From positions 27,188,101 through 27,252,100 of the forward strand of contig NC_092677.1 in assembly GCF_964355755.1 (NCBI RefSeq): a DNA stretch of 64,000 nucleotides, written 5' to 3'. Within the stretch, counting starts at the first letter, position 1; the number at the start of each line of letters is the position of its first letter. Under the pieces are notes generated by a model that had not been told where the DNA came from, searched no databases, and worked only from the letters and a program-made list of their open reading frames with translations. This document shows, one piece after another, positions 5,689-50,706 of the stretch. Position numbers and translations under genes: made by a program. The DNA is from Antedon mediterranea. Taxonomy: Eukaryota; Echinodermata; Crinoidea; Comatulida; Antedonidae.

Positions 5689-11279
<5,591 letters not shown>

Positions 11280-12103: not shown

Positions 12104-15100
12104 ATGGCGGATGGACTGGCTCAGAACATGGAAGAAAGAACAGGTAGATTTGCTTTTACATATTCATATTTTCGATTTTAGCATAATTCATTAGAGTTTT
12201 AAAAACTTGTGAGTGATTCATCGATGACCAATTTGATGGTTTTAAAACGTTATAGAACAGTTTGTAAAACCTAAAAACGTAGTATTTTCGCTCTTGTTTT
12301 TGTTAAGAACAGCAGCATTCAACGAGAATTAAATAACAAAACCTGGAACGATTTCGCAAAAATCTAACACAAAGCAAAAAGGTTGATAGCAGCCGACCGG
12401 GCGGGTGACACTTAAATAGGCGTCGATTAGCAGAGCTTATGAGGCCTAGCCGCCTAGACATTGGGGCTAGGATTAGCATTATTTAATAATATTAATATTA
12501 CGCTGGTGTGTTTACTGTTCCTATTTTATTTACTTGATTAGCTAGGCTTGAGATTATAATAATATTTTTTCTGTACAATTTTTGTAATAATTTACACAAA
12601 AAAACAACAAAATGTATATGTTTATGGCCTGCCCTGGGTCCAATATTTTAATTTGCATAAATTTGAATAAATATTTAGGTATAATTAAAATTCATTTTTT
12701 TTTTTGCAAGTCTTAATAAAGTTCTGCATTAAAATTCTAATCCTTGTTGAATTGAAAGTAATTTCTAAATTTCTATTTAAAACATTAAAAACTAACATGT
12801 ATAATATTAAATAAAACAAACTAGCCTACTGTCATGTATTCTAAATTATAAGACAGTCACAAACATTGATGACTTTGTTTACGAAAAAGAAAAATTGTAG
12901 TATTTTTAAAACACTCGCGTCTTGTATAAGTAATGGATGGATTTTGGTTTATCTTTCAATTTATTTTAATATTTATAAATAATATTTTTTCAGAATATAG
13001 CCAAAATATTTGAAAGCTGTCTTGCCATCCTAATAATAAATACTTCGCCTATTAAAAAATACCATAATTAATTTTACCTGACCACTTAGGGCCTATAGAG
13101 CGGAGAATACGGTTTTGAATACCGTTCTTTTCAAGAACCGTTTTTTCTTGCCAGCAGAAATAGGTCCCCACAAAAAAGAACCGATCTTAAAAACGGTTTC
13201 AAAAACCCCAATTGATTGCGGTATCGATCGCAAAGAACCGTTCTGAAACCGGTTTCAGCGGAGCAATTTTTAGCTGCAACACAATCGCGGTCTCAATTTG
13301 ACCCCAAAAACTGAACTCTGCAGTCTGCTGCACTGGGACGATTGCGGTCAACTCGCAGTCAAACCCGCGCGATACAGTAGGACCTAGGCCTAAGTCATTT
13401 TTATTTCTCTAGATAGTGAGTATTTTATTTAACTAAAAAATGTTGACCGATGCCATTACGAGGTTCGTAAAAAATATGTGAAGGGAAGAAGATGAGGGGA
13501 CTTTTCGGGAGTCGGAAGAAAGACTCACGTAGGCCTACATGTTTGAAAGCTAGACGAGCTCAACTTGGCAATATCAGAGGGTGCGACGTATACTTTTTAA
13601 CCAAGGACCACAATAACGTTTCAGGTTACAATTCCCCCTTCTATTATGAAATGGATGCTATTTCTGGGGGATCGCGCTATGCTAAAAAAGTAAACGTGAC
13701 CTCGATCCAATCGCACTTCCGCCTAACGAACTGCATTGTGGTGTATATAATGACGTCATTCATAACGAACGCACATGGACGGAACCGGTTTTATTGGAGT
13801 AAAAATTGAGCTGCAACGCGATCTTTATTTATAAACAACAGCCGAAACCTGTTTCCAAAAAGACGTTCTTTTTTTATTTTTCAATAGAAACAGGCCCTTA
13901 AAATTGTGTTTCCTTTTTAATCAAAATATTTATTCTTTCAGAATATATTTTAAAATGCAACCAAGTTTGTTATAGTATTTGATAGATTACAACCATCCTT
14001 TAAATGCCAGAATATTTAATTTAATAAAATGTAGTAAAATATATCTATAAAAATAATCACATCCTCTTAAGAAAAATAGTAGTAAAAATATATGAATCTT
14101 AGAATGGAGAGTAAATAAAAGTAATAAATTGGTTTTATATGGAACGCCGTTTACGCAAAATTTTGATGATATGAATTTTATGACGCGATATGTGAATGAA
14201 ATGCATCGATATGAATTGAATGGCGCGATATATGAATGAAATGTTTTGAATTGAATGCTTTGAATTGAATGTTTTGAATGAAATGTTTTGAATGAAATGT
14301 TTTGAATTGAATGTTTTGAATAAAATGTTTTGAATGAAATGTTTTGAACGAAATGTTTTGAATGAAATGTTTTGAATGAAATGTTTTGAATTAAATGTTT
14401 TGAATTAAATGTTTGAATTGAATTGAAAAGTCAAACTATTGGCGGCGTATGTCATTCCCGCTCGCGATTTTGTTTTAACCTCTTAGGCCTAAGCCTGGGT
14501 ACCCTCATCTCCTTTCCACGCTGTCATCAATATGGATCCTTTACAGAGAATCCTAACAGACCTGAAACATTGGAATACATATTTCCGAACCCAGGTCTGT
14601 TAGGATTCTCTGTAAAGGCAGCGTGGAGATGAGGGTACCCACGCTTAGGCCTAAGAGGTTGAGAAAAAAATCGCGAGCGGGAATGACATACGCCACCAAT
14701 AGTTTGACTTTTCAATTCAATTCAAACATTTTATTCAAAACATTTCATTTAAAACATTTAATTCAAAACATTTCATTCAAAACATTTCATTCAAAACATT
14801 GCATTCAAAACAATTTATTCAAAACATTTCATTCAAAACATTTCATTCAAAACATTCAATTCAAAGGATTCAATTCAAAACATTTCATTCATATATCGCG
14901 CCATTCAATTCATATCGATGCATTTCATTCACATATCGCGTCATAAAATTCATATCATTGAAATGTTGCGTAAACGGCGTTCCATACTTTTAAGTTTGTT
15001 TTGTGGATGTAATTCAGTTTCAGTTTTTTAGAATGTAAGAACATTTTTTGTTTTAAAAAGTTTTGTCTGTATTGGGCTGATTTTAGTTTAGTAATTTATA

Positions 15101-21100: not shown

Positions 21101-24100
21101 ATGCTTTTTGTTTCTGTAGTTTTTAAACATTGTTTATATTGCTGTATGTTGTTTGCTTGGCTAATCAACCTTTTTCTTTATGCATTTAAATGCATGTTTT
21201 TCTTCTATGATAGATTTCAACATATTTTATTTCTTTGTGCATGTTTTTTGATTTCTGCTTCTTTATTCCTGTTTTTACTTTAAATACATTTTATTATTTC
21301 AAATCTTGGTAAACAAAATAGTTCTAACTTTTAACTTGAAAGGGGATAAGCTTAAGATTTGAGAAGGACATCAAATACCTTAGATGGTGCCATAACCACT
21401 TGTATAGTGATTTAGTTCCAACATTTTACCCTGCCAGCTTGCCCTGCATGTTGTAGACTTCTGTAATAACATTTTTACTTGGTGCAATTAAAACACAATG
21501 CATTACAGTACTTGGTAAAAATGTTATCACACATAGAGTTCATGGCATATGACTTTCATATATGTCCAGAATTGAAGCTTTTGTGGTGGGGTGGTAAACA
21601 AAGGTTGGAGGATGGGGGATGACTTGACTGTAATGAGTGGAATTTTTATTCAGTGCATGTTACACAACTACTGCAGTTTAGTAAATTACCGTCCCAAAAT
21701 GATATCTCGCTAACCATGGTAAGTTACCCTCTAGACTTCACATTCACAGTTTGTAATATAAATACTGAAAAATTAAAATAATTAAAAACTAGAGTTTAAA
21801 CTGCTCAGCAGACCTCCATCCTCTTAAATTAAGTCCATATGAAGTTATTTAATTATTGTAAATGTTTCAAGTTTTTTATGGAAATTAATCTCTAATGGTA
21901 TTTTTTTTAATACATTTGCTTTTGGCAAGGTTGTATTATGCAAATTTTCTTCATGAATTATGCATGAAAGGGTGATTTTTCAACAACCTTTTACTACAAT
22001 GAAGTTCATGCATATGATGCATAATTATTGTGAATAAATTAGCATATTTCTTTTACAGTAGCTTCTGTACATCAATAATATTTAGTGCAATTTATACAAA
22101 CTACTACTAGCTATGTTATACTGTAGCTATTAGAAGATAGAGGGAGAGGGGGTTTGTGCAATGTGATATGACAGGAAAGAAATGCATTTTGTCTGAATTA
22201 ATAGAGTTTGTCTTGTGAGGGAACGAGCGAGAAATAAAGTGAAGGTTACACTTGTTTAAAGAATGATTTAGTATGAAGAAGTGAGCAAGGATTACAGAAG
22301 AATTATTGAAGAAGGAAAGATAATTGAGAAGGAAAGGCATAATATGAGCAATAGTTTTAAAAATAATAATTTATTAAAAATAATTACGTTTTGGCTAAAT
22401 TTAATTGCTTAAATAGAACATTCCCTTTCTAACTATGGCAGAAGAATTATACTGAATATTACATTGAAGATTACATGAATACCTTGTTTCTACAAGTGTT
22501 ACAATCACCTGCCTTCCTCCCCTCTGCTCTTATCTACCTTGTTCATAATTTGTTCCTTGGACACCACAATTAAAGCTTTGATTTACAGCAGGGTAGTTTT
22601 TTTCTCAAGATTTTAGTTTTTTTTGGATAAATAAATTGATTTAAAATCAAAACGTTATTGAATGTTAATTATTTAATCTACTTATAGGGTTATAAATTTG
22701 GATGTGGATTAAATTTAAAGATGTTTAAAAGATTACTGGCACACTTAATGTTTTAAGTCTGAACTTGGAATTAATAAATCTGTCTGCTACAAATCTTTGA
22801 ATTTGAATTTGCAAAAAAATGAAAAATGAAATATTCATGATATTACTAAAGCACTTAATTATAAAACAAATTAATTATGGAAAATAATGAAGTTTGTCGG
22901 TTGCAAGGTAATGGATAAAAGTGAATAATTATTTCATGAAATGTTTTTAAGTAATATGTTTAATAAATTTTAAATTTTAGAGCGAAGCATGCTTAGGTTT
23001 CAGTCTTTACTCCTATATTGGGGAGAAAGGTTTTGATCTGCTTACAGAGAATGTTAAACAAATTAATTGGTCCTTAATGGTGATGATGATGTTTGTAGAG
23101 ATATATATAATATACCTTTTATATGCCAATTTTGAAAAAAAATAATGATGAAATGTAATTAATAAAGTAAAAACCTGAGAAACTTTGGGCACGTGCTTAG
23201 ACCATTGGGCATGTGCTTTGACCATTGGGCATGTGCTTTGACCATTGGGCATGTGCTTAGACCATTGGGTAAATCCAATTTCCATAAACAAAATCCATAA
23301 TGCAACTTGGACGTAGACTACTGTACATAAGAGTTGAAACAGTTGATATTTACAACCCTGGCACTAGGTCAGGAATGATCTCTGAAACTTGGGATTGGAA
23401 GGCAGGCGTGTTAACCCCCAAGCTACATCGGGATTGGAAGGCAGGCTTGTTAACCCCCAAGCTACATCGGGATTGGAAGGCAGGCTTGTTAACCCCCAAG
23501 CTACATCGGGATTGGAAGGCAGGCTTGTTAACCCCCAAGCTACATCGGGATTGGAAGGCAGGCTTGTTAACCCCCAAGCTACATCGAGATTGGAAGGCAG
23601 GCTTGTTAACCCCCAAGCTACATCGGGATTGGAAGGCAGGCTTGTTAACCCCCAAGCTACATCGGGATTGGAAGGCAGGCTTGTTAACCCCCAAGCTACA
23701 TCGGGATTGGAAGGCAGGCTTGTTAACCCCCAAGCTACATCGGGATTGGAAGGCAGGCTTGTTAACCCCCAAGCTACATCGGGATTGGAAGGCAGGCTTG
23801 TTAACCCCCAAGCTACATCGGGATTGGAAGGCAGGCTTGTTAACCCCCAAGCTACATCGGGATTGGAAGGCAGGCTTGTTAACCCCCAAGCTACATCGGG
23901 ATTGGAAGGCAGGCTTGTTAACCCCCAAGCTACATCGAGATTGGAAGGCAGGCTTGTTAACCCCCAAGCTACATCGGGATTGGAAGGCAGGCTTGTTAAC
24001 CCCCAAGCTACATCGGGATTGGAAGGCAGGCTTGTTAACCCCCAAGCTACATCGGGATTGGAAGGCAGGCTTGTTAACCCCCAAGCTACATCGGGATTGG

Positions 24101-27100
24101 AAGGCAGGCTTGTTAACCCCCAAGCTACATCGGGATTGGAAGGCAGGCTTGTTAACCCCCAAGCTACATCATGGCTAAACACAAACAAACAAATTGTTAT
24201 GATCACTATTTCTATTATATCATGCATTTGTGCATATGACCATAGAGATTATTTCTCCATCATACAGTATGACACTGACAGACATTGATGGCATTACTAA
24301 AACTTGAAAAATGTAAAATCAGAATAATAATTCTGTTTATATTGTTATTGAATACAAACAGCAGCCTCTTTCAGAAATCTCCAGGATGTGGTGTAATACA
24401 TATATTGATAAAGAACATCCAAGTTATGAAGCAGAAGAATCTCCAACTAAGGTGTACATTTAAATATTGCCACATCATGTTCTGTAATGTTTCTAATATT
24501 TTTTATATTGTACACTTACACAAAAACTAACATTTTAGTTTTAAGTAGACATGTTTTGTGCTGTTTCGATAGCCCAAACATGGTTTGTGCTGTTTCGGTA
24601 GCCCAAACATGGTTTGTGCTGTTTCGGTAACCCAAACATTGTTTGTGCTGTTTCGGTAGCCCAAACATGGTTTGTGCTGTTTCGGTAACCCAAACATTGT
24701 TTGTGCTGTTTCGGTAGCCCGAACATGATTTCTGCTGTTTCGGTAGCCCAAACATGGTTTGTGCTGTTTCGGTAGCCCAAACATGGTTTGTGCTGTTTCG
24801 GTAGCCCAAACATGGTTTGTGCTGTTTCGGTAGCCCAAACATGGTTTGTGCTGTTTCGGTAGCCCAAACATTGTTTGTGCTGTTTCGGTAGCCCAAACAT
24901 GGTTTGTGCTGTTTCGGTAGCCCAAACATGGTTTGTGCTGTTTCGGTAGCCCAAACATGGTTTGTGCTGTTTCGGTACCCCAACCATGGTTTGTGCTGTT
25001 TCGGTAGCCCAACCATGGTTTGTGCTGTTTCGGTAGCCCAAACATGGTTTGTGCTGTTAGTTAGCCCATTAAAAATTGTTTGTCAATGTAAAGTACCATA
25101 GATTTTGCAAGTCCTCATAACAACATTCTTATTTTTTAATTGTTGGTATTGTACATTACACAATTTTTCATTGATTTTAAAATCAATTTTCCTCACACTG
25201 TTTTATTTTATATCCATTTCATTGTTTACAGTCGTCTGTTCATATTTTAAACTAACAACCCTCAAATGCTAAATATGATACAGGGAAAATTTTCATTTAA
25301 AAATTTTGTTTAGCAATATTGTATAGTATTTTTTTGCTACACAATTTTCAAAATGTGTAGCAATAAGGTTGTTTTGTATAGCTTTTTGCTATGCTACACT
25401 GGCGAAAATGTTCCCTGTGATAGTAAAAGGTATAATAGTTAATGTATCTGTACATATTTAATTGAAATTTTTTATTTATTCAACAATCGATTTAATTTAC
25501 TTTTAAAATAGATGATGTTCTAATTTAAAAATCCATTAATACTAAAGTTATAAATAAATTAAATTTTATTTTTTGAAATAAATTGTTAGTTGAAATGAAA
25601 TATTTTCAATTAATGAAATATTAAATATGGATGACATTTACCAAATAAATGAGAATAAAATCCACTTAAAGATATTGCTATTAATTTTATCTGATCTACT
25701 TAAGATGAAATACTAATATTAATTAACAAAGCTATAGGTAGTAATTATTAACTACTCAAGGCCAGTAGACACTTTTTCTTACAATTTTCCCCCAATAAGA
25801 GTGATTCATGCAGATAAAAGCATTTTTTTGTTATTTTTTTTAGACAAATGATCGTTTTCCATAGTATTCTCAAAATATATATTTTTTTGTCCATGTTTAT
25901 GTAAGGTAATTGAACAACCATTTTAATGTTTCCCCTTCTCCTTTTAATGTTCCCCTGCCCCCTTTTAATGTGTCCTTCCCCCTTTTAATGTCCCCTTCCC
26001 CCTTTTAATGTGTCCTTCCCCCTTTTAATGTTCCCTTTCCTCCTTTTAATGTCCCCTTCCCCCATTTTAATGTTCCCCTTCCCCCTTTTACTGTTCCCCT
26101 GCCCCTTTTACTGTTCCCCTGCTCCCTTTTACTGTTCCCCTGCCCCCTTTTACTGTTCCCCTGCCCCCTTTTACTGTTCCCCTGCCCCCTTTTACTGTTC
26201 CCCTGCCCCTTTTACTGTTCCCCTGCCCCTTTTATTGTTCCCCTGCTCCCTTTTACTGTTCCCCTTCCCCCATTTTAATGTTCCCCTGCCCCTTTTAGTG
26301 TTCCCCTGCTCCCTTTTAATGTCCCATCATTCCTTGCCTCAATACAACTTATTGGTCACTCAATTCTCTGTGCTATATCTATACACATAGCATTGTTTGT
26401 TGGTAACTTTCATTTTTCTTGATCAAATCTAAAGTTTACCTTAAAGATTATTAATATTTGTCCCTGTAGTGGCAGTCTAAATAATTGCTTTTTATCGTTA
26501 GAACGCCAATGTCATTAACGATCTTTGAATAAAATATTTAGTTTTTACTTCAACCTAGCCAATTCAATTTCATGAGATTAAGACTTTAAAATAAAACCTA
26601 AAACCTTGAATATATACATGTTATATCTCCCATGCCATACATTAATAACAATATTATGGAAATAAACAAGAATTAATGCAAATTTACTTCTAAACTATTT
26701 TTAGCATGAATAGCAATAGAAGAATTTTAATCTTTGAAAGTATTTAAATACAAACAAAATCTATCATCTGGTTTTAAGTACAGTAGTTAGCAAATGTTGT
26801 CAAAGTTGAATTAAGTACCAAACTAAATTTGCTAGTGAAGGTTTTGCGATACCAGTTTCTATTCTGTTTCAATAGTTGTAAGTATACTGTACTACAGTAT
26901 TTAGCAAATGCTTTAAAAATATACCAAATTAAGTTTGCCAGTAAAGATTTGTAGTAGTTTCCAAATAAAATAAAGTAATGAAGTTTAGAATATCTCTGCA
27001 TTTTCATTCTTCTGCTACAACCATCTTCTAGAATACAAAGCAGGTTCAGTAAAGTTGAGGTGACTATAAAGTTCCACAACGGTGCTCCCAATTTGCCTAG

Positions 27101-30100: not shown

Positions 30101-33100
30101 ATAATCAATCTAATACGTACCTTACTCATTTTTAAAGCCTTCATAAAAATTGTATATTTTTTCGTACCCAGTCATTGTATTGAATCGCGTATAGACCTGT
30201 ATTTAATAATCTCAATGAAACAGATAATGTAGCTGAATATCAGCAAAGCTAAAGCTCTGTTTACACTATCAAACAGTATGTGACCAAAAAAATGTGATGT
30301 GGCCATATATGGACACGATGATGTCATGTCACTACCATATTAGGGAACACTTTTTTTGTCAAACTAGTTTGCTTTACTACACATAAAACTGTAAATATAA
30401 GAAAAATAGAAAGATGATAATATTGAAAAAAAATCCACGCGCATGAAGAGAGGCCACAGATTGTATTATTGTATACATATTGCTTACAGTATAGATAACA
30501 CGCTCCAGACCTTGATTTAAAAGGAGCGCCATGGCGCTGACGCTCCTTGGCGCTCCTGAAAACGATCAAAGGAGCGCCTAAAATAGCGCTCCCCAACCTG
30601 TTACAGTGCGTCATAAAAATATATATAATGATAAGAATATTAACCCCGAATACAACACACAGTCTATATATAGTCGCGCAAACGATCTTTGTTATGGCTA
30701 CCCCCGATAGGCTAGGCGCGCCTACGATCTTTGATGTTGCGAGAAAAATATCGTAAACAATTCATTCTAAATATAGTATCAGAATGTTCAATCGGTAGCT
30801 CAAAAAGACTGCCGTCAGAAGACCGTAATTATACAGACCTAGTTTTTTTGGTCACATGGCATGAAACGCGATACTCTCTGCTTTACCGCAACATCTCACA
30901 TTTTTTTTAACTCATATGTACGAAAGCCCATTAATGCCATTTTAAGTATATGTTTTTCGAACGTAATCCGTTATAACGAATTAGTAATTCGTTTGAACGG
31001 ATTAATAATCTGTTCAAACGAATTAGTAATCCGTTCAAACGAATTGCAACATATACAACAAGTGCCATTTAAAGTATATGTTGTAATTCGTTTGAACGGA
31101 TTACTAATCCGTTCAAACCAATTACTAATTTGTTTAAACGGATTACTAATTTGTTCAAACGGATTACTAATCCGTTCAAACGAATTACTAATTTGTTTAA
31201 ACGGATTACTAATTCGTTCAAACGAATTACTAATTTGTTTAAACGGATTAGTAATCCGTTCAAACGAATTACTAATTCGTTCAAACGAATTAGTAATCCG
31301 TTTAAACGAATTAGTAATTTGTTTAAACAAATTAATAATTTGTTTAAACGGATTATTAATCTGTTTGAACAAATTAGTAATTCGTTTGAACGAATTAGTA
31401 ATCCGTTCAAACGAATTACAACATATTCTTTAAGTGGCACTTGTTGTATATGTTGCAATTGGTTTGAACGGATTACTAATTCGTTTGAACAGATTACTAA
31501 TCCGTTCAAACAAATTAATAATTTGTTTAAACAGATTAATAATCTGTTCAAACGAATTAGGAATCCGTCCAAACGGATTAGTAATTTGTTTAAACGGATT
31601 ACTAATCTGTTTAAACGAATTACTAATTCGTTTAAACGAATTAGTAATCCGTTTAAACAAATTATTAATTTGTTTAAACAAATTACTAATTTGTTTAAAC
31701 GGATTACTAATTCGTTCAAACGAATTACTAATTCGTTCAAACAGATTAGTAATCCGTTTAAACAAATTATTAATTTGTTTAAACAAATTATTAATTTGTT
31801 TAAACAAATTACTAATTTGTTTAAACGGATTACTAATTCGTTTGAACGAATTAGTAATCCGTTTAAACAAATTATTAATTCGTTTAAACAAATTAGTAAT
31901 CCGTTTAAACAAATTAGTAATTCGTTTGAACGAATTAGTAATTCGTTTGAACAAATTAGTAATCCGTTTAAACAAATTAGTAATTCGTTTGAACGGATTA
32001 GTAATCCGTTTAAACGAATTACAACATATACTTTAAATGGCACTTGTTGTATATGTTGCAATTCGTTTGAACGGATTACTAATTCGTTTGAACAGATTAT
32101 TAATCCGTTCAAACGAATTACTAATTCGTTAGAACGGATTACGTTCGAAAAACATATACTTCAAATGGCATTAATGGGCTTTCGTACATATGTGAGGGTG
32201 GCTGCCGACGATAAACAGTAATCAATCGTGTACCTGGATTTTGTGTCACATGACAAGAAACATAATTATACTCTCTCTGATCTTAATAACTGCTCACATG
32301 TTTTCCCCTCCAAATTCTGGTCGGGCCTTTTCAGTCTTATACACATGTCGCCTTTATGTTAAATCTTATAGTAATTAATATGGAATATATATTTATTTTG
32401 CATATATTTTGTTGGTGTCCTAGCCTAGGTGTCGTTGTTTTTATAATTCGCTAACCCAAGGTAGGATTAAATAATTTATAGTGTAGGCCGCCGAAACTAG
32501 ACTAGGCCTAGGCCTAGGTAGATAGCCTCGACTCTCTCTCTCTGCGTGAGCTGAGAGGTCCACGGACCCGATGTCGTCTCGTCGGCGGATTTCCGTCCAA
32601 ATTAGGATAACCGATGCGTAGGCCTAGCTAGGGTGGCTACAAAAATTAACGTCTACTATCTTTAGATAGGATTTTAATTAGCAAACAATACATTGTTTGT
32701 TTGCATTGTCCATGCTTCTAAAGGCGATGACAATGGTGTTTACTAACCCTACGAACCACCCTACGATCAACGCCTAGATAATTATCATAACAATACATCA
32801 TAGACTACGTTCAGAGAACAATGACCTACGATGAATTTTACGTGCGAGAGTACCATTTCCGGCCATCTAGAGGTGTCATTTATCAAAATTCGGCTCGTCA
32901 CAGGCCCAACCATGGTGGGCCTGTGCCTCGAATACTTAATCAAAATAATGGCTCTCCTCAACATATTGAGGAGAGCCATTAGGAGCTCTCCTCTTATATT
33001 TATAAATCAAGGTCTGACGCTCCTTATCCACACTTTATGATAAATGAATGCAACCATACATTATTTTATATGCATGCTATGTCATGTTAACAACACCGTC

Positions 33101-35785
33101 ATTGCTATTTAGCCTTTTATTTTTAATGTTTAATCAAACTAAGGGAAAATTTGAATGCATTAAAGCTCTGTCTACACTATCAAATTTTATGTGACAAAAA
33201 AATGTGATGTGCCCATATATGGACACGATGATGTCATATCACTTACATATTTGGGCATATCACTTACATATTTGGGTACATCACACTTTTTTGTCACATA
33301 AAGTTTGATAGTATAGACAGAGCTTAAGGTAATAATGGTATTTGTATATATTTTATTTTTAGAATATCATTTTTAATAACTAATGAAAACTATAATAATA
33401 ATAATTAACCTACATAAATAAATGCAATAACTTTGGCATGCATACTACCTTATAAGGTGATCATTCACTATCAAGCTAGTACATAAATGAATTTAATATT
33501 ATATTTAATATCTGTAGTTAAGTTCACCCTGTGCTACAAATACAAGCCTGTATAAAGTTTATCCTAGTGTAACCCATCACCATCGTTGATGCAATATGTT
33601 ATAATCCTCGAATGTAAACCCACTTTCTAAATGCAAAGGGATTAATATGTTATGATCCTCGAATGTAAACCCACATTCCAAATTAAATATTACATTCTCC
33701 CCATTCAATACATAATTGGTGACATTAGTTAATAAATATGTTGTTAATCTAATTCTGCTTGTTGAGTTGTATTCTTGTTAATGTTACAATGTTTATGTTG
33801 CAAACAAATATATAATTACTTTATTATCAACATTACATTATGGTATAATCCTTGCCATGTATTTTTAAATAATTTATGTATTGGTTGATTTGTACACGCC
33901 TTGCATACAAATTTTCATTTAAACCATTATAAACTTAATGGTAGGTGTAACGATGTTTATATAAAATTTCTATCATAATATAAAACAAACTAACAACAAA
34001 AAGTGAGGCAAATTATTATGATTCAAAAATTCATTCAACATATAAAGTTTTAAAATTGAATCATATGGTTTTTTTTTTATATTATAATGTATTAGTAAAC
34101 TCTCTAATGTCATGATATTAATGTTTTAAGTAACATTCTTTTTTTCAGTTTACTACAAGTCAAGCAAACCTGCTTCAAGGTCAAACTTTAATCGGAGGTC
34201 AATCACTCATACCGACTGCAACTATAGCTACCGGTACGTCGGCACCAACCGCAGCAACCATCGTGACACCAGCGGTGCAAACGGCAGCAGTAATACAGCA
34301 GCAGCAACAGCAGCAGCAGATACAAGTACAAGCCAAAGCACCTACAATAAATGAAGAACCAACAGATTTAGAAGAGTTAGAACAGTTTGCAAGAGAATTC
34401 AAACAGAGGAGGATTAAATTGGGATTCACTCAGGTAAGAAGAGTCTTATTTAAACTGTTAATGGGTATTATTTACCATAGAAAGTGTCTTAGTTTATGGT
34501 TGTCTGATATGGTTCAGTAGAATGTTCAATGTTTAGTAAATAAGGCGTGCAGAATAACTTAACAGATCATTAGATTTGATGATGTTTGAAACGTCAAAAT
34601 TTATGATAAGGTCATTGTTCCGTACTCAATTATACATCTTAATAATCGTTTTATCCTTTTAACTTTGAGCAATTGTATGTCACATGAATTTCTGTATGGA
34701 CAAATAAAATGAACTATGAACTATGTGGTGAACTATGAACTATGAACTATGTGGTGCGGTATCAAAAAACAAAACAGAACATATTGAGATAAAAATGTGG
34801 TGATGGTTGTTTTGTATGTTTTTTGGCAAATAAGAATAATAATGTATTATTTGTTTGTTTGCATCCATAGGGAGATGTAGGATTGGCAATGGGCAAGCTA
34901 TACGGCAATGACTTCAGTCAAACAACTATCTCAAGATTTGAAGCATTAAATTTAAGTTTTAAGAACATGTGCAAGTTAAAACCACTTCTACAAAAATGGC
35001 TTGAGGATGCGGACTCGACCGTTGCAAACCCAGCTCTGCTCGGATCCCCGCATAGTACACCCGACGGCATTGGTAGGAGACGTAAAAAACGCACTAGTAT
35101 TGAAACTAACGTAAGAGTAGCTCTTGAAAAAAGCTTCTTAAATAACCCAAAACCAACGTCAGAGGAGATACAGTTGTTAGGTAACTCACTTGGCATGGAG
35201 AAGGAAGTCGTACGTGTTTGGTTCTGCAACAGAAGACAAAAAGAAAAACGTATAAACCCGCCTAATTCACCATTTAGTCATGGTGGATTGCTTTCCCCTG
35301 GGCTATCCACTCAATCGTTGATAAGTCCTCAATCTACTATGTTAACGAACATTACAGGAGGAAGCCAATTGGCTACGTCCGTTCCAAATTCAAATACCAT
35401 TCCAGGTCTGACCCAGATTGCGACATCGTCTGTGCCCTCGCAAGTACTACCCTCTGGCTTCATGCTCAATGTACCGCTTAACTTTGCTGTGAATCCAGTT
35501 GCAACTTCCGCTACCTCAACGAACACTAATACAGCAATGAATTTGGCTGCTGCTAATGCAGTTGCAAATGCTGCAGGACTTACGCTCGCACCGAGCCATC
35601 TACCAATCTCATTGGCTACGTCGTTAGCCAATGGTAACCCTCAAATGGTGATAGCAAATACGCAGGGTAATACAAACATGATTCAAACAGCCTCGATTCC
35701 AGTATCTCAGGTACAAAGCCACATCATCACGGCCGCGCCTATATCAACACCTGCAGTAACGCAAGTATCGTCAGCAAGTAAATAA
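12104..35785 (+). CDS. POU2F1: POU class 2 homeodomain transcription factor (Oct-1/Oct-2 type)
   Basis: Ten exons fit one frame: 12104-12143 (ATG), 18646-18705, 19112-19152, 19608-19769, 20029-20268, 20981-21058, 29034-29171, 29986-30078, 34149-34433 and 34871-35785 (TAA), giving 683 aa. The N-terminus MADG matches a vertebrate Oct-1 isoform. Residues about 100-350 are glutamine-rich ([20 protein letters not shown]), a transactivation type. The POU-specific domain spans about 353-427 ([13 protein letters not shown] to LQKWLEDA), the homeodomain about 448-507 ([12 protein letters not shown] to [11 protein letters not shown], with the POU-class Cys in helix 3). A Ser/Thr/Ala-rich tail ends SSASK. 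The family binds the octamer ATGCAAAT in the nucleus. Both POU halves are near-identical to vertebrate Oct-1, so the class call is secure, but one invertebrate gene may represent POU2F1-3 together. Introns 1, 6 and 8 are 4-8 kb and repeat-rich. Confidence 0.95.
13089..13897. mobile_element. Harbinger-like element (candidate)
   Basis: Ends GGGCCTAT (13089) and ACAGGCCC (13897) are short inverted repeats, each flanked by TTA (13086-13088 and 13898-13900), as expected for PIF/Harbinger insertions. Subterminal GAACCGTTTT/AAACCGGTTT words recur inside. An open frame at 13492-13809 has no match I recognise and is not called a gene. Confidence 0.5.
14140..14984. mobile_element. 845-bp fold-back element with TA target duplication
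   Basis: Almost the whole element is one palindrome centred near 14560. Ends are TGGAACGCCGTTTACGC and its reverse complement, flanked by TA at 14138-14139 and 14985-14986. Each arm holds 14-bp tandem units (TTTTGAATGAAATG on the left, its complement on the right) and then a unique inner arm (GTCAAACTATTGGCGGC to AGAATCCTAACAGACCTG). The inner centre is only about 40 bases. Lies in intron 1 of the POU gene. Confidence 0.85.
14990..17180. other. Intron 1 of the POU gene, AT-rich DNA
   Basis: No exon or clear element seen. Short ORFs here are AT-biased and resemble no known family. Confidence 0.4.
17181..17363. mobile_element. MITE with GCTTGGTTCCCACTAG ends
   Basis: The left end GGCTTGGTTCCCACTAGAAC is mirrored by a right end CTAGTGGGAACCACGC, and the complementarity extends inward through AACGCAAGGACGTAA. 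Total about 180 bp, so the element can form a long hairpin. A second, interrupted copy lies at 29443-29665. Confidence 0.75.
18169..18178 (+). other. Possible alternative first coding exon of the POU gene
   Basis: ATGCGTCAAG followed by GTATGT gives Met-Arg-Gln plus one base, exactly the phase needed to splice to the exon at 18646. A TATATA run lies about 130 bases upstream (18038-18046). An intronic promoter producing a shorter N-terminus is possible. Evidence is weak because such short matches arise by chance. Confidence 0.25.
19178..19337. mobile_element. MITE of the AGCTCTGTCTACAC family, copy 2
   Basis: Starts TTA-AGCTCTGTCTATACTATC, with CCATATATGGG inside. The right end is worn. In a POU intron 26 bases after an exon. 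Confidence 0.8.
20301..20456. mobile_element. MITE of the AGCTCTGTCTACAC family, copy 3
   Basis: Starts CAGCTTTGTCTACACTATCA and ends TGTAGGCAGAGCTTAAGG. It begins 33 bases after POU exon 20029-20268. Confidence 0.85.
20811..20880 (+). pseudogene. Decayed copy of a glutamine-rich POU exon
   Basis: After an AG at 20809-20810 the sequence CACCAGTTGCAGATGTTGCA and the following CAACCACAAGCTGCTCC parallel exon 20981-21058 (CAGCAGTTGCAGATTCTGCA). Its reading frame would begin one base off the phase-0 neighbours, and no good donor follows, so it is probably a dead duplicate. Confidence 0.5.
21059..23180. other. Start of the 8-kb sixth intron of the POU gene
   Basis: AT-rich, with no exon or element that I could define. 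Confidence 0.4.
23183..23270. repeat. 20-bp minisatellite, about 4.5 copies
   Basis: Tandem ACCATTGGGCATGTGCTT-type units, with TTTG or TTAG as the main variable position. Lies 120 bases before the 39-bp array. Confidence 0.9.
23391..24170. repeat. 39-bp minisatellite, exactly 20 copies, derived from a tRNA-like SINE head
   Basis: The unit begins GGGATTGGAAGGCAGG, has GTTAACCCCC in the middle and ends CAAGCTACATC. 780 bases equal 20 units. Differences are very few: GCGTG in unit 1, and AGATTGG in two later units, so expansion is recent or homogenised. Read on the minus strand the unit is TGTAGCTTGGGGGTTAAC followed by GCCTGCCTTCCAATCCC, like an A box and anticodon arm of a tRNA. Unit length divisible by 3 leaves four frames open for up to 299 codons. 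These ORFs are not genes. Confidence 0.95.
24549..25064. repeat. 29-bp minisatellite, about 18 copies
   Basis: The unit contains GTTTGTGCTGTTTCGGTAG followed by CCCAAACATG. Because 29 is not a multiple of 3, all three minus frames cycle through the same 29-residue peptide without stops, producing three overlapping ORFs of about 170 codons. No gene is implied. Located in the sixth POU intron. Confidence 0.95.
25927..26325. repeat. Pyrimidine-rich minisatellite (CCCCTTTTA-type, period about 20)
   Basis: About 20 imperfect units of CCCTTTTACTGTTCCCCTGC. The plus strand is almost purely C and T with TGTT or AATG breaks, giving strong strand asymmetry. The ORF at 26010-26390 is a by-product. Confidence 0.9.
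26330..27560. other. Intron DNA of the POU gene
   Basis: AT-rich. The only internal repetition seen is between 26770 and 26960, where AAACTAAATTTGCTAGTGAAG and a near copy recur. No gene. Confidence 0.4.
27563..27631. mobile_element. MITE of the AGCTCTGTCTACAC family, copy 4, internally deleted
   Basis: Only about 69 bases remain: the left end TTAAGCTCTGTCTACACTATC joined to the right end CAGTGTAGACAGAGCATAA, with the centre missing. Confidence 0.8.
27640..29030. other. Intron DNA of the POU gene, no feature seen
   Basis: AT-rich with homopolymer runs. No exon is needed between 21058 and 29034, since both flanking exons are phase 0. Confidence 0.4.
29443..29665. mobile_element. GCTTGGTTCCCA MITE interrupted by another MITE
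   Basis: Left part AAGCTTGGTTCCCATTGAAC (from 29443) and right part GTGGATACCAAGCTTAAG (to 29665) are the two ends of the element also found at 17181. Between them, at about 29532-29649, sits a copy of the AGCTCTGTCTACAC family (CCTCTGTCCACGCTATCAA to GTGTAGACAGAGCTTTA). Hence the latter inserted later. Confidence 0.75.
30251..30372. mobile_element. MITE of the AGCTCTGTCTACAC family, copy 6, right end lost
   Basis: Starts TAA-AGCTCTGTTTACACTATC and fades after TTTTTTTGTCAAACTAG. Located in the eighth POU intron, just before the composite element at 30494. Confidence 0.75.
30494..33028. mobile_element. 2.5-kb composite inverted-repeat element
   Basis: The outer ends pair: left GATAACACGCTCCAGACCTT (30494) and, at the right end, AAGGTCTGACGCTCCTTATC (ending 33028), both next to GATTTA/TAAATC. 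CGCTCC/GGAGCG words recur just inside. A second nested inverted repeat begins CTCATATGTACGAAAGCCC at 30911 and ends at 32197. A perfect hairpin (GGCTCTCCTCAA arms) lies near 32951-32978. No transposase seen. The class is unknown; the layout is fold-back-like. Confidence 0.65.
30911..32197. repeat. Palindromic 21-bp satellite inside a 1.29-kb inverted repeat
   Basis: The interior is built of about 50 units of 21 bp, each combining a GTTTAAAC-type and an ATTAGTAAT-type centre (for example AACGGATTACTAATCCGTTC), so every unit is itself nearly palindromic. A 43-base marker with GTGCCATTTAAAGTATATG or its complement occurs at about 31045-31088 (one orientation), 31416-31458 and 32021-32063 (the other). 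Unit length divisible by 3 gives ORFs of up to 363 codons on both strands, translating as repeats like SNPFKRI. These are not genes. Confidence 0.9.
33160..33328. mobile_element. MITE of the AGCTCTGTCTACAC family, copy 7 (best copy)
   Basis: Both ends are intact: TAA-AGCTCTGTCTACACTATC on the left and GATAGTATAGACAGAGCT-TAA on the right, suggesting a 3-bp TAA target duplication. The inside holds TGTGATGTGCCCATATATGG and two direct copies of CATATTTGGGCATATCACTT-like sequence. At about 170 bp it can fold into one hairpin. The family has at least 13 members in this window, all in introns or spacers. Confidence 0.9.
33590..33685. repeat. Short direct repeat, two copies
   Basis: AATATGTTATAATCCTCGAA with the following TGTAAACCCAC recurs once about 56 bases downstream with one or two changes. 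In the eighth POU intron. Confidence 0.7.
34560..34755 (+). mobile_element. Possible LINE 3' tail
   Basis: ATGGACAAATAAAATGAAC followed by repeated GAACTATGAACTATG resembles the tail of the LINE fragment at 10625-10670 (GGACAATAAAGTATATATGAC). No coding part remains, so this is tentative. It lies in the last POU intron. Confidence 0.35.
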
Positions 35786-37973: not shown

Positions 37974-38091
37974 TAAAGCTCTGTCTACACTATCAAACTG
38001 AAAAAAGTGTGATGTGCACAAATATGGTAGTGATATGTTTAAATATGGTATCGTGTCCATATATGGGTTTGATAGGGTAGACAGAACTTAG
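37974..38091. mobile_element. MITE of the AGCTCTGTCTACAC family, copy 9, shortened
   Basis: Starts TAA-AGCTCTGTCTACACTATC and ends GGGTAGACAGAACTTAG. The internal part is deleted relative to the copy at 33160. Confidence 0.8.
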
Positions 38092-39398: not shown

Positions 39399-48808
<9,410 letters not shown>

Positions 48809-50706
48809 TTTTACCTTTAATTTGAAATATAAGTTAACAACTTGTTCATATTGTGCCTTACATTAATTGCATAAAAAGCATGAATTTGTGATTTTTATTT
48901 GCAGTTATTGCTAGGCCTCCGTTTTCATGGATCACCAGGCATCGAGATGACTGGGCAAATATGAAAATTAATAATTTATTATTTACAAAATTCGTGGCGG
49001 TTCGGAAGATTTTATGTTTTCCCCGGAAAATTTTATGTTTTCCCCGGAAAATTCAATGTTGTGAAAAAAATAATTGAGCGTCATACTATGGTACGCCAAA
49101 TACGCCTGATTTATTAATTACGTTTTTACAACAATTTAAACATTTTCTAAATAATATTTAATGATTTTTATAGTATTTTCTGTATTATACGTTTATACCT
49201 TTATGACAAAGGCAGAATAGGCTTCTAGATAATACACTGTCAATTATAAACACTATGATGTAACATTACATCACACACCTTTGCCATATTTGTTGAATAT
49301 GTTTTTATTTCACTACAGTTAGTTGTGCCAAACAACAATCGGACAACAGCGGGAGAATTGAATAACAAATAACAGGAGCTGGCATAAATAAGTCTAGCCT
49401 AGATTTCCCAAATAATGAATACGTTGTTTTATACACAAAATACAAAAAGGTGTGTGTTAGGTAGTTATATTATTAGTAGAGTAGGCCTACCCTAGGGCCT
49501 AACTAGCTAGGCTACCCAGCTAGCTAGCTAGAGGGCCAGGCCGATAGCGATCATTTATTTATTACGGTAGTAATAAATGATGAGTAGGATATCTATGTTA
49601 TGCGCGATTTGAACGATTTGCGCAATTTGAAATTGCGCAAAAAAAATCCTTGCGCAATTTGAATTGAAACATGTGTTTCAAATTGCGCAAGCAACGTATT
49701 AAATTGCGCAAGTAATCTGCAAATTGCGCAAGTAATCTGCAAATTGCGCAAGGTTTTTCGACAGATTGTGAAATCATGCACACCCATATTTTTATAGTAA
49801 TTTCTAAGAATGATTCAAAATTAAAGATAAATATCGCATTTCCTTATTTTAGTAGTGCAAATATTGTTATAAGTTAGCATACCGTCGAAGAACCGACGAA
49901 GGAAAACGAAGCGGTGGTGTTCCACCAGGCGGGCGCGGCGCGGGAGGCCGGCTATACTACTCTAGCCTAGCTAGGGTCTGGACTACTGATACTGACTAGG
50001 TTACATGGCCTAGCTTAAACTAATATTAAAAACTTAATTTTTACATTTATTTTGATTTATTTCAAGTTACAGTGATAATATTATTTAATTGTAATAATAA
50101 ATGTTATGTATTTATTATACACATGTTATCTTCGCAGCGCATTTATTATGTTTTATTTTGAGTTATTTAGTTTCCAATAAATTATTATAATACCGATTGT
50201 CTGGTAGAATTTTGTTGCGCAATTTGAAAATTTGCAGTTCGTTTTCAAATTGCGCAAAGGTGTCATATTGCGCAAGAACTATCTTGCGCAATTTACAAAT
50301 TGTGCAGCGCAATTTAAAATTGCGCAAAGATTTTCTTGCGCAATTTGAAATTGCGCAAGTTGATTGCGCAATTTGAAATTGCGCAAAAAAATCCTTGCGC
50401 AATTTTAAATTGCGCAAGAATTCTTTGCGCAATTTGAAATTGCGCAAGGATTTTTTTGCGCAATTTCAAATTGCGCAAATCGTTCAAATCGCGCATAACA
50501 TCTATACTAAGCTAGCTTGTGGTCTTTCTAGGCCTAGGTTAGGTCATGCCAGAGGATGCTGGTTATGCCATTTAGTAGGCCTACTATAACCGCAACATAT
50601 TTATCTATCATAATAAAAGTATTGTCATTGTGTCAAAAGAGTGCAAACTCGGGCGTATACATAACATATTACATACATTTTATATTATATATTTTATTCT
50701 TTATAG
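48809..50706. promoter_or_regulatory. Head-to-head spacer between AFG3L2 and the PROSER3-like gene
   Basis: Should contain the AFG3L2 promoter and the promoter plus first exon of the gene starting near 50707. I could not identify that exon. Contents seen: TAGGCCTA clusters (49480-49540), a CG-rich patch (49890-49960, GGCGGGCGCGGCGCGGGAGG) that may be promoter, and the fold-back element at 49597-50499. Confidence 0.35.
49597..50499. mobile_element. 903-bp fold-back element built of TTGCGCAATTT units, 6-bp target duplication
   Basis: Ends GTTATGCGCGATTTGAACG and its reverse complement are flanked on both sides by ATCTAT (49591-49596 and 50500-50505). Both termini are packed with TTGCGCAATTTGAAATTGC palindromes in alternating orientation (about 49617-49755 and 50213-50485). 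The middle (about 49760-50210) is unique, AT-rich, with one CG-rich patch. ORFs over the repeats are artefacts. Confidence 0.85.

Follow-up and report, generated by a model that had tools for sequence, protein, structure and literature searches.

A transposon with palindromic 21-bp array ends nested inside a second, unrelated transposon

The inverted-repeat layers at this locus are two unrelated transposons, element B being nested inside element A. The outer element A is ordinary, and the inner element B is unusual in its build, as its ends are made of a palindromic 21-bp array. An object that looked nameless thus becomes a clear and datable nesting of two families, and for each of them the genome contains a partner that encodes a transposase. 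It is highly probable that both are non-autonomous cut-and-paste transposons, with B consisting of the long terminal inverted repeats of a ~12.9-kb element and moved in trans, and with the array probably made of binding sites. The nesting itself, the empty site, the target-site duplications, the copy families and full-length partners for both A and B were all observed. Positions refer to the window, which is the whole 64-kb stretch of DNA analysed; genome-wide searches used the 354-Mb eukaryotic assembly.

Results

Structure of the locus

Element A spans 30506-33016 and element B 30919-32186, which corrects the limits of 30494-33028 drawn around a single object in the initial annotation. The left part of A (30506..30912, forward strand), delimited by genome copies and by its ends, begins with the 14-bp terminal repeat CAGACCTTGATTTA; the right part (32193..33016, forward strand), 99.2% identical to the sister copy L002 over 830 bp, closes with the terminal repeat TAAATCAAGGTCTG at 33003-33016. 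Directly outside lies the target-site duplication of A, ACGCTC, identical on the left (30500..30505) and on the right (33017..33022). The outer ends had been described as pairing over 2.5 kb; they do pair, over 14 bp (CAGACCTTGATTTA / TAAATCAAGGTCTG) and not over 2.5 kb, and mark the tips of an element ~1.24 kb in length. That the two flanks of the core resemble each other directly was borne out: A contains a ~105-bp internal duplication, whose local alignment scores 40.3, while the best of 1000 shuffles reaches 28.6. The alignment was made in L002, an uninterrupted copy of A, and gives the approximate limits of the duplication in the window (copy 1, 30807..30905; copy 2, 32203..32310; both on the forward strand).

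Element B, delimited by its ends and duplications, occupies 1268 bp (30919..32186) as two repeat-built terminal inverted repeats placed back to back, and is flanked by CATATG on the left (30913..30918) and on the right (32187..32192). Its array (30964..32142) contains about 50 units of 21 bp, in agreement with the first count: matches to the strict pattern AATNNGTTNNAACNNATT number 50 in the core and 0 elsewhere in the 64-kb window, and Tandem Repeats Finder gives a core period of 21 bp. The description of the units as near-palindromic applies to the consensus, TAATTCGTTTAAACGAATTA plus 1 base, which is a 20-bp palindrome with one spacer base, whereas perfect palindromes make up 104 of 1091 units from 22 copies. 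The nested inverted repeat is likewise real, with arms of 506 nt (30913-31418 / 31687-32192) that are 95% complementary; at the other offsets of the core that were listed, complementarity reaches at most 89%, because palindromic units give such pairing for free. The array is broken by the spacer segment CAACATATACAACAAGTGCCATTTAAAGTATATGTTG (31047..31083, forward strand), whose sequence forms a hairpin with a 10-bp stem. A second spacer segment lies in the opposite orientation (31419..31455, reverse strand), and a third (32022..32058, reverse strand) is the right-arm mirror of the first, both being placed by sequence and by repeat family D6.

Insertion of B into A

A genome search with the flank and the ends, as suggested in the initial annotation, found independent copies of A and of B. 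With the left flank of A as query, the best 40 copies are 96-100% identical; paired copies of A are mostly ~1.2 kb long, against 2.5 kb for the window copy, and in the fetched copies both flanks of the core adjoin, with B absent. The sister copy L002 has AACTCATATGTGAGG where the window has AACTCATATG-[B]-CATATGTGAGG. As AACTCATATGTGAGG is intact in L002, A was the target into which B (30919-32186) inserted, with duplication of CATATG, at a point near the junction of the two direct repeats of A. Beyond B having come after A, we infer the order of events as follows: A would have inserted at ACGCTC, and B would later have entered A at CATATG.

Element A and its relative

Uninterrupted, A measures ~1.24 kb with 14-bp ends, and exact 6-bp target duplications flank 12 of 16 copies. 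At C6:11438697-11443387, A ends lie 4.69 kb apart, with CATAAT flanking both sides. This relative is identical to A over the left 124 bp (100%, the first 124 bp of L002 matching the transposase-carrying copy completely) and 94.6% identical over the right 186 bp, and a 429-aa ORF inside it encodes the hAT dimerisation domain PF05699. The joint occurrence of A ends and a PF05699 ORF identifies A, by sequence, as a non-autonomous hAT element. Two further candidates for a transposase-carrying A were rejected: the A-end pair at C3:16217994-16223974 contains a nested insert, and at C4:17564216-17568067 no transposase domain was noticed in the ORFs, which were looked over without a profile search.

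Element B in the genome

Element B starts with TACGAAAGCCC and finishes with GGGCTTTCGTA; the window copy, further B copies and the ~12.9-kb partner all carry these TA..TA termini. Across the genome there are 116 exact matches to the 20-bp end TACGAAAGCCCATTAATGCC, and a 24-bp version with at most 3 mismatches marks 138 ends; no match to the B end was found in viral contigs. Exact 6-bp duplications, for example CATATG, GATATC, GATAAG and CATATT, flank 17 of the 26 distinct parsed copies, and copy lengths range from 282 to 2028 bp. Copies over 1 kb have a median alignment identity of 97% (up to 99.9%), while the two arms within one copy differ by 4-22% and are usually 87-96% alike. Copies this alike, with arms less so, indicate that B expanded recently out of a small number of source copies and that its arms are not undergoing homogenisation. 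Gene conversion between arms is thus unsupported, and the arm differences, being larger than those between copies, point to inheritance from the source copies.

Solo B ends also exist; most of them break inside the array, which rules them out as full elements. Of the 1308 array matches counted in the genome, the first 100, which cover C1 up to 8.95 Mb, all sit within a B element or a solo B end, and among these 100 there was no large tandem array free of the transposon. Two B copies on C1, L077 (C1:2339407) and L079 (C1:2675478), share length, flanks and the target-site duplication CAATCA; they are 336 kb apart and 99.8% identical, and represent a segmental or assembly duplication. The 9.07-kb pair of B ends at C1:36080778-36089847 (L097, L064/L065) was rejected as an autonomous B, as it is a B copy with a third nested element and no long ORF. 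This copy lies within what looks like an intron of a conserved gene. The third element is built from partly palindromic units of ~86 bp, arranged in long inverted arrays of its own, and has inner ends GTGTACAGCCAAATCAAAACCAGGC / GCCTGGTTTTGGTTTGGCGGTACAC and an apparent 6-bp duplication, ATTTGT.

Full-length partner of B and related families

Relaxing the B end sequence exposed related end families and thereby opened the route to the partners. The search with TACGAAAGCCCATTB, for which ~2 chance matches are expected, gave matches that both belong to a related family and led to the partners. The diverged relative at C1:5572635-5585349 has ends 12.7 kb apart and is flanked by CATTTT; a 5.6-kb version is flanked by ATACTT. 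Just inside its left end is a 29.6-copy 21-bp palindromic array, TTAATAATTCGAAATTTCGAA, followed by an integrase-type ORF (Pfam rva_4 5e-16, IS481 profile 1e-7) that holds one stop in this copy. A genome search with this ORF found C1:8956264-8956836, which is 71% identical, has a 312-aa open frame and lies 1.9 kb inward from C1:8954369, where there is an exact B end.

The ends of this partner are at C1:8954369 and 8968774, with CGTAAG flanking both sides. Its right end contains a further B copy of 1457 bp as a nested insertion (8967302-8968758); once this copy is set aside, the partner is about 12.9 kb long. Over the ~5.5 kb covered of the ~14.4-kb locus (C1:8954369-8968774), the arms are 87-94% identical to B (90-91% to the window B), carry 31 and 34 strict 21-bp units and share the place of the window spacer, with gaps at unit positions 109-166 and 101-158. 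The transposase frame is stop-free over the fetched piece and runs on beyond it, with matches to Pfam rva_4 (1e-29), NCBIfam IS3 (3.8e-5) and IS481 (0.0037) and a catalytic-type spacing of D-58-D-33-E. We regard this C1 element as the likely driver of B; as the identity to B is 87-94% and not 100%, the partner read here may be related to the true source rather than being the source itself. The simplest reading of the shared ends is that B would be the two ~0.6-0.8-kb repeat-built ends of such an element, back to back, with the ~11-kb interior lost, and that it would move in trans via the integrase-type transposase of full-length elements.

The duplications of the relatives are all 6 bp (CATTTT, ATACTT, GATTTC), and a sister end family in the genome, TACGGAAGCC, is close to the fungal IS3EU end TAYGG..CCRTA (PMC12730594). 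Sister families with related ends are found at C1:13489251 (L102) and C5:23373656 (L103), and they include a ~96-bp miniature palindromic element with the duplication GATTTC; TACGGAAGCCCGTTCGGGCCACAA ends number at least 154 genome-wide within 3 mismatches. The 12.7-kb relative (L108, L110) carries ORFs of 245, 116, 116 and 90 aa opposite the transposase strand, which gave no confident Pfam match; one of them looks HECT-ligase-like by eye. The best IS481-profile match, C7:21688066 (L100), was rejected as the transposase of B, as its ends differ (TGACCGGTCAGTTAAGG). This element (C7:21685900-21690700) carries rve_3 and OTU domains, i.e., an integrase and an OTU protease; its inverted ends resemble a tRNA gene (TGGCCGAGCGGTTAAGGC, GTTCGAGGCC), and it is possibly a tRNA-associated transposon.

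Other repeats in the window

In an inverted structure at 14168-14956, units of 14 bp (TGAATGAAATGTTT and its complement) form arrays of ~170-190 bp; the structure has mirrored 40-bp flanks and ends GGAACGCCGTTTACGCAA / TTGCGTAAACGGCGTTCC. An abundant short element with ends AAGCTCTGTCTACACTATCAAA is present at 7046, 19180, 20433, 27565, 29624, 30252, 33163-33325, 36301, 37976-38089, 42776, 55433 and 57496; several copies hold a 21-bp internal repeat, ATATCACTACCATATTTGGGC, and element A lies between two copies that share one orientation. Long tandem arrays, most of them highly homogeneous, are found at 44044-47643 (72 bp x 50, 98%), 39765-40363 (21 bp x 28.5, 97%), 23391-24170 (39 bp x 20, 99%), 24549-25058 (29 bp x 17.6, 95%) and 25921-26322 (21 bp x 19.4, 88%), and an array of palindromic GCGCAATTTNAAATTGCGC motifs at 50286-50479.

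Discussion

The three layers are co-axial at the window locus, which could suggest a single composite transposon of new build, its outer ends, nested repeat and satellite core moving together. However, the best 40 copies of A were found with the left part alone, those fetched lack B, and B copies lie at unrelated sites with duplications of their own. Together with the empty site in L002, these independent copies of A and of B rule out a single element, which has practically no chance of being correct, and the word composite used in the initial annotation is apt for a nested insertion and not for one element of new build. It is also very improbable that B is an ordinary satellite with inverted ends that multiplied through recombination or circles and not through a transposase. 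The short tandem unit, the variable length of B and the solo ends that stop inside the array are what such a satellite would look like, but the first 100 of the 1308 array matches all fall in B or solo B ends, B copies are flanked by 6-bp duplications, and the full-length partner encodes an integrase.

The role of the array is a separate matter. Twenty-one bp correspond to two helical turns of B-DNA. The half-site TAATTCG, the period of 21 and the palindromic layout are common to B, the partner and the diverged relative, and the centre letters of the unit differ between B (AATTCGAAATTTCGAATT) and the diverged relative (AATTCGTTTAAACGAATT). Period and half-site having been kept while the centre letters changed, the array may be a phased platform for the transposase, for which the 21-bp palindromic units would serve as repeated, phased binding sites. 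We favour this platform reading, with neutral expansion about equally likely, also because Tetris and Galileo provide a precedent, the tandem repeats in their ends acting, or being suspected of acting, as additional transposase sites (PMC4079207). That IS3EU-like ends can take the form of long 21-bp palindromic platforms, and that bare platforms such as B are efficient enough to spread alone, is a tentative proposal that falls somewhat short of probable. A quite possible alternative is that the array is non-functional, AT-rich ends having expanded by slippage and hairpins and being tolerated. Palindromes and short tandem units expand easily, other elements in the genome also carry palindromic arrays, and the halves of a unit match no better than chance in single copies, so that perfect hairpins are not kept and selection for them within the unit is unsupported; yet period, layout and half-site persist in the diverged relative and in both arms. 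An array serving as a source of dsRNA or small RNA through its long hairpin, or as a gene-regulatory element, is improbable. The fold of a 335-nt piece of the arm is 27 standard deviations more stable than those of shuffles, and for the whole 1270 nt the folding energy is -838 kcal/mol, but such folding follows trivially from palindromic units, and hairpin formation alone is no evidence.

Why some transposon ends expand into satellite-like arrays is a question that can be tested cleanly in the B family. Array-bearing ends are present here together with their bare-end derivatives, a full-length partner whose transposase frame is open, and a diverged relative.

Comparison with known systems

According to PMC12730594, 6-bp duplications mark the hAT6 group. 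Element A resembles hAT6 in its 6-bp duplications, its CAG..CTG ends and a partner with a hAT dimerisation domain (PMC12730594), a likeness in duplication length, ends and domain. For element B, the signature of IS3EU/GingerRoot is TA..TA ends with 6-bp duplications (PMC10045372). B shares both the termini and the 6-bp target duplications, and its partner shares the integrase-like DDE transposase related to bacterial IS3/IS481; opposite-strand passenger ORFs are common to the 12.7-kb relative and fungal IS3EU (PMC10045372; PMC12730594). By termini, duplication and transposase profiles, B is thus classified as IS3EU/GingerRoot-like. The initial view that no named family has this build does not hold at the superfamily level; at the family level it may, B being perhaps an IS3EU/GingerRoot family without a name. 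B differs in that its terminal repeats are ~0.6-0.8-kb arrays of palindromic 21-bp units, ends of which no description for IS3EU/GingerRoot was found in the papers searchable here.

In structure, B belongs with the foldback elements, as its long terminal inverted repeats are largely tandem subrepeats (506-nt arms, 95%). Galileo is a member of the P superfamily, and its transposase is different from that of B. As cited in PMC4079207, Galileo and FB are foldback elements with internal tandem repeats in their ends, like B, and secondary transposase sites have been reported for Galileo. Tetris, a foldback element of Drosophila virilis, resembles B in its long terminal inverted repeats, whose tandem subrepeats vary in number and are suspected of acting as additional transposase sites, and in being non-autonomous and satellite-like (PMC4079207). 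Unlike B, Tetris has 220-bp units that are not described as palindromic and 8-10-bp duplications, and Mutator was suggested as its superfamily; free satellite arrays of it exist, and no autonomous, transposase-encoding copy was found (PMC4079207). Element B is foldback-like, an array-ended variant of a known superfamily and not a new class.
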